Below are positions 59,186-61,317 of a stretch of 64,000 bases of DNA, piece after piece. Origin of the DNA: Primorskyibacter aestuariivivens (GTDB lineage Bacteria; Pseudomonadota; Alphaproteobacteria; Rhodobacterales; Rhodobacteraceae); assembly GCF_028023675.1 (NCBI RefSeq), contig NZ_JAQIOZ010000015.1:1-64000 (forward strand), given 5' to 3'. Each line of letters opens with the position of its first letter. Position 1 is the first letter of the stretch. Position numbers and translations under genes: made by a program. The notes under the pieces are model-generated. The model was not told the DNA's origin. It made no database searches and saw nothing but the letters and a program-made list of their open reading frames with translations.

Positions 59186-59572
59186 ATGGATGATCTCATC
59201 AAACTCGGGCGCGACTTCGTTCAGGCAATGCGGGAGCGACGAGGCATCGGGCATGTGGACGAGATTTACGCGGAGAATGCGCAATCGGTCGAGGCGGTGG
59301 TGCCGCCGGGACGCGATGTGCGCATCGCCAAGGGGCGGGGGCCCATTGCCGCCAAGCGCGAGGATTGGGCGGCCACGCATGAGATCCATTCGTTGGAGGC
59401 GGACGGGCCTTATGTGCATCCGCCCAACCGCTTTGCCGTGCGTTTTGAGGCGGAGGTGACGCAGAAGGCCACGGGTCGCAAGATGACCCTGCGCGAGATT
59501 GCCGTGTATTCCGTGGAAGACGGCAAGATCGCCCGGGAAGAATTCTTTATGCTGCCGAAAGAGGAAGGCTAG
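59186..59572 (+). CDS. SnoaL-like / NTF2-fold protein
   Basis: A 128-residue protein of the cone-shaped NTF2/SnoaL fold: MDDLIKLGRDFVQAMRERR, then VDEIYAENAQSVEAVV, KREDWAATHEIHSL and IAVYSVEDGKIAREEFFMLP. Family members are isomerases, hydrolases or of unknown function; no catalytic set can be named. An FNR-like site lies upstream. It stands between the M32 gene and the gene transfer agent cluster. Confidence 0.8.
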   Translation: MDDLIKLGRDFVQAMRERRGIGHVDEIYAENAQSVEAVVPPGRDVRIAKGRGPIAAKREDWAATHEIHSLEADGPYVHPPNRFAVRFEAEVTQKATGRKMTLREIAVYSVEDGKIAREEFFMLPKEEG

Positions 59573-59621: not shown

Positions 59622-59650
59622 TTGACTCTGCGCGCGGTTTCGCGTATCGA
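59622..59650 (+). promoter_or_regulatory. Promoter of the gene transfer agent cluster (candidate)
   Basis: TTGACT is followed after exactly 17 bases by TATCGA, a good sigma-70-type pair. Transcription would begin near 59657, about 107 bp before the first GTA gene. A half-site GTTAAC lies just before it (59606). Confidence 0.6.
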
Positions 59651-59675
59651 TTGTGACATGCTAGGAGATGTGGGC

Positions 59676-59711
59676 GAACAGTCCCCGGGGTGACCCGGTG
59701 GGCTGTTTTTT
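59676..59711 (+). terminator. Intrinsic terminator in the leader of the GTA cluster
   Basis: Arms AACAGTCCCCGGG and CCCGGTGGGCTGTT pair (one G-U, one bulged base) around GTGA and run straight into TTTTTT. It begins only about 20 bases after the probable start of transcription and 53 bp before terS, so it would end most transcripts unless overcome. Confidence 0.8.
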
Positions 59712-59763
59712 CGTGTCTGTCGTGCGGGGGAACCACCCTTTGCATGAGAGGTATACGAGCAGA

Positions 59764-60105
59764 ATGGTTCTTATTACCCCGGAGCAGGAAATCGCGCGGC
59801 TTGAAGGCGATCTTGAAGACGTGCGCGACATCCTCGGCGAGTTCGAGGAGACATTGAGAGACCTGAGAAAACGGGTCCGGGCCGGGGAAGTCGATAATCT
59901 GAAGGATGCCAGCAAGACGCTGACCGAGTTGCGGTCATGGCTCAGGCTGGCCAAGGAAACGGAGGCGCAGCTTGCGGAATATGCACGAAAGGAAGCAGGA
60001 ATCGTCGGGTCCTGGGGGCTTGACCTCGACCGGGCGCGATCTGAGGTCGGGTGCCGTCTGGCTCGGGTCCGCGCCTGTTGCGGCGCAAGAGGCGTTTCTG
60101 GCTGA
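59764..60105 (+). CDS. Gene transfer agent small terminase subunit TerS (g1)
   Basis: A 113-residue, strongly helical protein (IARLEGDLEDVRDILGEFE; LRDLRKRVRAGEVDNLKDAS; ELRSWLRLAKETEAQLAEYA). It matches in size, charge pattern and position the g1 gene of the Rhodobacter capsulatus gene transfer agent, identified as the small terminase that recruits DNA for packaging. The end, RVRACCGARGVSG, overlaps the start of terL. The ATG at 59764 has GAGAGG within reach. Confidence 0.85.
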   Translation: MVLITPEQEIARLEGDLEDVRDILGEFEETLRDLRKRVRAGEVDNLKDASKTLTELRSWLRLAKETEAQLAEYARKEAGIVGSWGLDLDRARSEVGCRLARVRACCGARGVSG

Positions 60106-61234
60106 TCTGGAGGAGGGAGAGCTTATGGCTCTCCCTTTTTTGTTCGAGTTCTGGGCGCATCCGCATCAATTGCCGCCCGACGGCGATTGGCGGGCTTGGG
60201 TGATCCTGGGTGGGCGTGGCGCGGGCAAGACGCGGGCGGGGGCGGAATGGGTGCGCGCGCAGGTGGAAGGCGCGCGGCCGCTGGACCGGGGCCGGGCGCG
60301 GCGGGTGGCGCTGGTGGGGGAAACCTATGACCAGGTGCGCGATGTGATGGTGTTTGGCGACAGTGGCATTCTCGCCTGTTCGCCGCCCGACCGGGTGCCG
60401 AAATGGGAGGCGACGCGGCGGCGGCTGGTCTGGCCCAATGGCGCGGTGGCGCAGTGTTTTTCGGCCAATGACCCGGAGGCTTTGAGGGGGCCGCAATTTG
60501 ATGCGGCCTGGGCGGATGAACTGGCGAAATGGCCCAAAGGGCAGGAGACCTGGGACATGCTGGCCTTTGGTTTGCGGCTGGGTGATGACCCGCGGGTTTG
60601 CGTGACGACAACGCCGCGCAATGTGGAGGTATTGAAGGATTTGCTGGAGGTGCCGTCCACGGTGGTGACGCGCGCGCCGACCGAGGCGAATGCGGCGTAT
60701 CTGGCGTCCTCGTTTCTTGATGAAGTGCGGGCGCGCTATGCCAATACGCGGCTGGGGCGTCAGGAACTGGATGGCGAGCTGCTCACCGATGTGGAGGGGG
60801 CGCTCTGGACCCATGCGATGCTGGATCAGGCGCGGGTGGAGCGTTCCGGGCGGCTGGACCGGATTGTCGTGGCGGTCGATCCGCCGGTCTCGGGCCATGC
60901 GGGGTCGGATGACTGCGGGATCATTGTCGCCGGCGTGCGGATGCGCGGGCCGGTGAGCGATTGGGAGGCGGTGGTCTTGGAGGATGCGTCGATTGCGGGC
61001 GCGTCCCCGGCGGAATGGGCGGCGCGGGCGGAGCCGGTGGCGGCGCTGTATGAGCAGGGGCGGGTCAGGCACCTGCCGGGGTTGGGTGATCTGGAAGACC
61101 AGATGTGCCGCATGGCGCTGCGTGGGTATCAGGGCAAGGGGAGCCCGGACCGGGTGGATGCCTTGGTCTGGGCCTTGACCGAGTTGGTCACGGCGCATGT
61201 GGGGCATGTGCAGGCGCGGGTGCGGGTGTTGTGA
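59981..61234 (+). CDS. Gene transfer agent large terminase TerL (g2)
   Basis: A 417-residue packaging motor and nuclease. Walker A GGRGAGKTRAGAEWVRAQ lies near residue 75, a Walker B-type region follows (DAAWADELAKWP), and the nuclease domain carries acidic residues (VVAVDPPVSGHAGSDDCGII; SPDRVDALVWALTEL). In GTAs it cuts and packages random host DNA. The start ATG at 59981 overlaps terS; an in-frame TTG lies three codons upstream. A noncoding stretch of 241 bp with hairpins follows. Confidence 0.93.
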   Translation: MHERKQESSGPGGLTSTGRDLRSGAVWLGSAPVAAQEAFLADLEEGELMALPFLFEFWAHPHQLPPDGDWRAWVILGGRGAGKTRAGAEWVRAQVEGARPLDRGRARRVALVGETYDQVRDVMVFGDSGILACSPPDRVPKWEATRRRLVWPNGAVAQCFSANDPEALRGPQFDAAWADELAKWPKGQETWDMLAFGLRLGDDPRVCVTTTPRNVEVLKDLLEVPSTVVTRAPTEANAAYLASSFLDEVRARYANTRLGRQELDGELLTDVEGALWTHAMLDQARVERSGRLDRIVVAVDPPVSGHAGSDDCGIIVAGVRMRGPVSDWEAVVLEDASIAGASPAEWAARAEPVAALYEQGRVRHLPGLGDLEDQMCRMALRGYQGKGSPDRVDALVWALTELVTAHVGHVQARVRVL

Positions 61235-61238
61235 GTGG

Positions 61239-61285
61239 CGATTTCTTTTGAAGAAATCGGACCGAAATCTTTTGAAGATTTCGGT
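61239..61285. repeat. Paired hairpins between GTA terL and portal
   Basis: The first has 9-bp arms CGATTTCTT / AAGAAATCG (61239-61259) around TTG; the second has 11-bp arms ACCGAAATCTT / AAGATTTCGGT (61261-61285) around TTG. It is the same layout as the double palindrome after nrdJ (21577-21620), with a shared AAATCTT / AAGATTT type core. Confidence 0.7.
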
Positions 61286-61317
61286 TTGGGGGCAGCGCGC
61301 GGTGTGATCGGGGGATG

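Follow-up and report, generated by a model that had tools for sequence, protein, structure and literature searches.

Production of a gene transfer agent (GTA) kills the producing cell and is limited to few cells. In Primorskyibacter aestuariivivens, the promoter of the GTA cluster is followed almost at once by an apparent intrinsic terminator, ahead of any gene. A promoter with a terminator close behind it is familiar above all from phage late genes. What does such a stop do at the head of a GTA cluster? To address this question, we analyzed the window, that is, the whole stretch of 64,000 nucleotides that contains the locus. The genes downstream of the leader encode TerS, TerL, portal, prohead protease and HK97-type capsid, in that order, and the capsid resembles the GTA capsid Rcc01687 of Rhodobacter capsulatus. 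These genes are a Rhodobacterales GTA cluster, with g1 (terS) at its head. The coordinates of the leader and its surroundings are collected in Table 1.

Table 1. Features of the GTA leader and adjoining genes in the window.
Feature	Position	Strand	Basis or remark
-35 element of the GTA promoter, TTGACT	59622..59627	+	Read in the sequence; TTGAC near-invariant across aligned leaders
17-nt spacer, CTGCGCGCGGTTTCGCG	59628..59644	+	Carries conserved CGNNCGGT at 59631-59638; candidate GafA/GafZ-type binding element
-10 element, TATCGA	59645..59650	+	Sequence and aligned leaders
Conserved transcript start, ACATGCTAGGAGATGTGGGC (consensus CATGCTRGAAGAAGTGGGC)	59656..59675	+	DNA conservation among aligned leaders
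Intrinsic terminator	59676..59711	+	Hairpin GAACAGTCCCCGGGGTGACCCGGTGGGCTGTTT (59676-59708) and T6 (59706-59711); covariation and conserved position
Second leader hairpin	59721..59751	+	3' arm reaches the g1 Shine-Dalgarno sequence GAGAGG
g1, GTA small terminase (TerS)	59764..60105	+	Homologues in 277 of 397 Rhodobacteraceae genomes
Hairpin AGGGAGAGC-TTAT-GGCTCTCCCT and T6 inside the start of terL	60114..60141	+	Just past the g1 stop; covarying

The initial annotation had read the promoter as TTGACT-N17-TATCGA, which proved exact to the base (59622-59650), and had placed a strong hairpin with six Ts between it and g1, which both reading and folding of the sequence confirmed. The predicted RNA start lies near 59657, at A59656 or A59658. 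The hairpin, which is rich in GC, by itself folds to about -24 kcal/mol, and the 59 nt from 59655 to 59713 fold to -28.3 kcal/mol (z -3.45), an energy as low as which was reached by none of 200 dinucleotide shuffles. The terminated RNA is predicted to be about 50-55 nt long, and 52 nt separate the end of the terminator from the ATG of g1. Among the 11 promoter-like sites found on both strands of the 64 kb, only the one at 59622-59650 has a strong terminator within 90 nt. A generic promoter and terminator scan of the window reported neither the GTA promoter nor the leader terminator; it was too strict for both, because the -10 element lacks the required T at position 6 and the stem is bulged. 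The second leader hairpin has no statistical support alone, as shuffles folded almost equally well. At the same position, relatives carry a differently lettered hairpin (CTCGTGCG..CGCATGAG, or GCCTG..CAGGC). The second leader hairpin may control translation of g1.

Next, the regions upstream of g1 were compared at 90 loci of the family; a 91st (L031) was the same locus as L025. TerS evolves fast, and its use as a query for related loci returned one locus. Most loci share one design, namely TTGAC, a 17-nt spacer and a TA-containing -10 element, with the start motif 8-9 nt and the T tract 53-58 nt past the -10 element, and the leader consensus is TTGACTnTGCGCACGGTCTnnCGTATAGGTTGTGnCATGCTAGAAGAAGTGGGCAAACGGCC-hairpin-GGCCGTTTTTT. 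The promoter–terminator unit was detected upstream of 69 of the 90 g1 loci, about three quarters, at E<=1e-4 (66 of these 69 had trained the model). At least five Ts within 10 nt were kept in 78 of 79 leaders. In all 70 genomes for which the places of both were listed, the model match lay immediately 5' of g1 on the same strand, including 33/33 genomes from outside the batch fetched for training. The unit is essentially single-copy in its own genome, scoring 97.3 bits at the leader and 21.7 bits at the runner-up. At E<=0.01, matches were found in 320 of 397 Rhodobacteraceae genomes, the weak ones being uncertain and perhaps chance terminators. Across the class, 2 of 289 genomes matched at 1e-5, both of them Rhodobacteraceae, and none of 285 genomes of other alphaproteobacterial families yielded the unit. 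Comparison with other Rhodobacterales GTA clusters had been proposed in the initial annotation, with absence of the hairpin there as evidence against its reading. The hairpin and T tract occupy the same place in most Rhodobacteraceae clusters, though a minority has no terminator.

TTGAC and the start motif had in part guided the choice of the aligned leaders, whereas the hairpin had not. A search of IMG/VR with the letters of the promoter and start motif alone returned 32 loci, 31 of them distinct. A terminator followed in 31/31 distinct loci, compared with 19/310 mononucleotide shuffles. All 32 contigs (L158-L189), although filed as viruses, are GTA clusters with GTA-type TerL and portal. The promoter–terminator unit is real, conserved and restricted to the GTA cluster. 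Beyond the core promoter, conservation peaks at two places, the spacer (CGNNCGGT, with an information peak at C9 G10 C13 G14 T16) and the first 20 transcribed bases. CATGCTRGA at the RNA start is conserved, and it resembles a -10 element only in part (TAGAAG); these first bases may serve as a pause or as a loading signal for an anti-terminator. AT-rich conserved patches (TTAA, TTT) were also seen 40-60 nt upstream of the -35 element in the aligned leaders, a potential IHF site of the kind present in Caulobacter.

The letters of the hairpin vary, but its pairing is preserved. The RNAalifold consensus on a MAFFT alignment was poor, with misaligned loops, and 79 leaders were instead realigned with a covariance model (R1) carrying the projected stem. 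In this alignment 93.8% of cells pair, and compensatory changes were found in 14 of 14 stem pairs. Changes on both sides of a pair occupied 138 cells; shuffles gave 32 such cells, and structures with a slid partner gave 23-33 (0/500). As the R1 alignment is fitted to the structure, we put weight on the size of this difference. Covariation in every stem pair lends further support to the reading of this hairpin as a terminator.

We then examined R. capsulatus, for which the GTA promoter has been mapped. The capsid of one genome (G684) is identical to Rcc01687 over 150 residues, and we took this genome as R. capsulatus on that ground. The leader was present in 17/17 loci tested, 16 of the R. capsulatus genus and one of its neighbour G115. 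In the G684 leader (L133), the distance to g1 is 106 bp from the start of the -10 element and 51 bp from the T tract. In R. capsulatus, the -10 element, the RNA-seq start and GafA binding were placed 76-125 bp upstream of g1 (Fogg, 2019, PMC6363796; Sherlock and Fogg, 2022, PMC9638019). Because the G684 distances fit this interval, the R. capsulatus transcript appears to start upstream of the hairpin and GafA to bind at this promoter; a start downstream of the hairpin, which would have spoken against the initial annotation, is not what was published. The C-terminal domain of GafA binds the fragment that contains the -10 element and start (PMC6363796), and GafA has been described as an activator that contacts the polymerase through its omega subunit (PMC9638019). 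The promoter, start region and regulator are the same in these studies and in our analysis, and the genome with the Rcc01687-identical capsid has the leader terminator; the two papers, in contrast, mention no terminator and ascribe activation to recruitment (PMC6363796; PMC9638019). Two further features were seen in L133-L149: in most loci of the R. capsulatus genus a further strong terminator precedes the GTA promoter by 35-60 nt, and immediately upstream of the -35 element lies a conserved CAACCnTGnATTTAG, a candidate regulator or IHF site.

A candidate for overcoming the terminator is encoded in the P. aestuariivivens genome. This GafA homologue with DUF6456 (E 2e-59) is 392 aa long and has an N-terminal HTH (47-95) and a C-terminal DUF6456 domain (248-383), and DUF6456 is present in 363 of 397 Rhodobacteraceae genomes. 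Caulobacter crescentus controls its GTA through GafY, GafZ and IHF. GafZ, which is homologous to the C-terminal half of GafA, binds a palindrome (ZBE) between the -35 and -10 elements, the place of the conserved spacer element here, and travels with polymerase and NusA/G/E past terminators, rrnB T1 included (Tran and Le, 2024, PMC11150451). These authors speculated that GafA could also anti-terminate (PMC11150451). Because GafZ anti-terminates in Caulobacter and the P. aestuariivivens genome encodes an HTH/DUF6456 GafA, the leader is a fitting target for GafA. Both systems combine a GTA operon, a regulator of the DUF6456/GafA family and an early terminator in the transcription unit. However, the Caulobacter terminator consists of three 150-bp GC-rich repeats after the first gene, gtaT, with a leader of about 250 nt (PMC11150451), whereas here a compact hairpin and T tract precede all genes at about 50 nt from the start, and a single fused protein serves as regulator.

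Taken together, we consider it probable, at roughly 70%, that the GTA promoter and its promoter-proximal intrinsic terminator form a default-off gate of the pR'-tR' type that is opened by GafA. Unaided RNA polymerase would start near 59657, stop near 59709 and release an RNA of about 50 nt. GafA would bind the promoter, probably at CGNNCGGT between the -35 and -10 elements and perhaps also at the first 20 transcribed bases, and aid initiation. The GafZ-like DUF6456 half would then keep GafA on the polymerase, so that transcription would continue past the hairpin through g1 and the remaining cluster genes. We infer termination in vivo, read-through with GafA and loading at the spacer and start elements; the arrangement suggests that GafA must carry RNA polymerase past the stop before particles form. 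As in promoter-loaded anti-termination, the promoter is followed by a conserved intrinsic terminator before the operon's first gene begins. Lambda-type late control (pR'-tR'-Q; also AlpA) likewise combines a promoter, a candidate spacer element, conserved first transcribed bases, an intrinsic terminator before the late genes and a dedicated activator. It differs in that its regulator is unrelated in sequence, and anti-termination in the GTA leader is predicted from the parallels above. Lambda tR' lies about 194 nt from the start, compared with about 50 nt here. Several points count against the gate: the demonstrated terminator of Caulobacter stands after the first gene rather than in the leader, part of the g1 loci have no leader terminator, and activation by GafA through omega could suffice.

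The initial annotation's proposal of a default-off terminator that has to be overcome fits these data, with GafA, a homologue of the anti-terminator GafZ, as the candidate, but does not extend to every cluster. About one quarter of the g1 loci have no leader terminator despite the presence of gafA (e.g. L004, L005, L008, L011, L016-L019, L023, L025-L028). Where the leader is absent, the DUF6456 match tends to be weaker (median -log10 E of 54.5 versus 61.5, p 8e-7); this correlation is confounded by phylogeny and was therefore not used as proof. Several of the loci that lack the leader T tract (among L004, L005, L008, L011, L016, L017, L019, L025, L026 and L028) have an N-terminally longer TerS. 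GTA loci of this kind, with gafA present, are a natural comparison group.

A further hairpin was found inside the start of terL, its stem and loop spanning 60114-60136 ahead of the T run, and it is conserved in most of the family. It was strong in 12 of the 13 loci without a leader terminator for which terL data were available (among L001-L030), and R. capsulatus-genus loci mostly do not have it. Of 190 terL windows, none exceeded this site in its gain over synonymous recoding (-7.2 kcal/mol here, compared with a mean of -0.47, sd 1.08). An alanine codon in the hairpin tracks the opposite arm: GEL always goes with GCT, though GCT makes up about 6% of alanine codons elsewhere, GGL with GCC, GER or GGR with GCG, and GEC with GCA. 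This codon pattern is RNA-level selection within a coding region. Only some lineages have a good T run, and the protein sequence (FLF) could account for it. The position of the hairpin after the first gene recalls the Caulobacter terGTA, and our guess from the sequence is that it might be a second terminator or some other RNA element. We give even odds to an extended reading, in which GafA-loaded polymerase would have to pass the leader terminator and, in most lineages, the terL hairpin, GafA being both activator and anti-terminator and a phage-type late switch having been kept. Within this two-barrier reading, at least one barrier is retained in most lineages. Farther downstream, the gap between terL and the portal gene (61238-61287) contains two adjacent inverted repeats, TTTCTTTTGAAGAAA and CCGAAATCTTTTGAAGATTTCGG, the latter unique within the window.

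Other explanations of the leader hairpin were weighed against the GafA-opened gate. A SnoaL-like gene (59186-59572) lies upstream, co-directional with g1, and ends 104 nt short of the hairpin, which might serve as its terminator or as an insulator against outside transcription, its place after the GTA promoter being incidental. We consider this highly improbable. The distance between hairpin and GTA promoter is fixed across the family, the upstream gene is divergent in about half of the loci (by a rough longest-ORF call), and an insulator at this place, past the promoter, would block the GTA promoter too; moreover, the separate pre-promoter terminator of most R. capsulatus-genus loci indicates that the leader hairpin is not the terminator of the upstream gene. 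A classical attenuator or riboswitch, in which a leader peptide or ligand would toggle between terminator and anti-terminator folds, also appears very unlikely, even though an ATG at 59658 in the window opens an 11-codon frame ending within the hairpin loop. The leader peptide was rejected, as the triplet is ATG in just 49 of 77 leaders, with AAG, ACG or another triplet in the rest. Within the ensemble, the terminator stem is the dominant structure (median pairing probability 0.997), and a search of the window against Rfam 15 gave no match to the leader, two tRNAs being the sole matches above the gathering score. The leader-peptide, insulator and RNA-switch readings fit worse than the GafA-opened gate.

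A separate small RNA was the alternative named in the initial annotation: the unit could encode a regulatory RNA about 50 nt long, with the GTA operon expressed by leak-through or from another promoter. Such a discrete RNA would have its own promoter and terminator, and its 5' part before the hairpin is strongly conserved; yet the unit always adjoins g1 in the genomes compared, its copy number in its own genome is essentially one, the published R. capsulatus GTA start is at this promoter, and our literature search, with subscription journals mostly outside its reach, found no GTA-leader small RNA. We regard this explanation as improbable, and a small RNA may be a by-product of the gate. It is likewise unlikely that GafA acts at initiation only, with the hairpin as a weak, leaky terminator that sets the expression level or shields the 5' end of the mRNA. 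GafA does interact with polymerase through omega (PMC9638019) and hairpins can stabilise mRNA, but the T tract, which stability does not need, is as conserved as described above, and GafA has, in its C-terminal half, homology to a protein with demonstrated anti-termination.

The same search, again with most subscription journals outside it, found no paper that describes a terminator in the leader of a Rhodobacterales GTA, and no gate of this kind, with a late-promoter-like terminator ahead of domesticated phage genes, is described in the literature searched. For R. capsulatus, the leader terminator offers the anti-termination proposal of Tran and Le for GafA a concrete, base-level target. The leader is also a family-wide sequence mark by which GTA promoters can be located, as can contigs that are filed as viruses but carry GTAs. 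If true, a GafA-dependent terminator gate would help to explain the tight off state and the all-or-none expression of GTAs.
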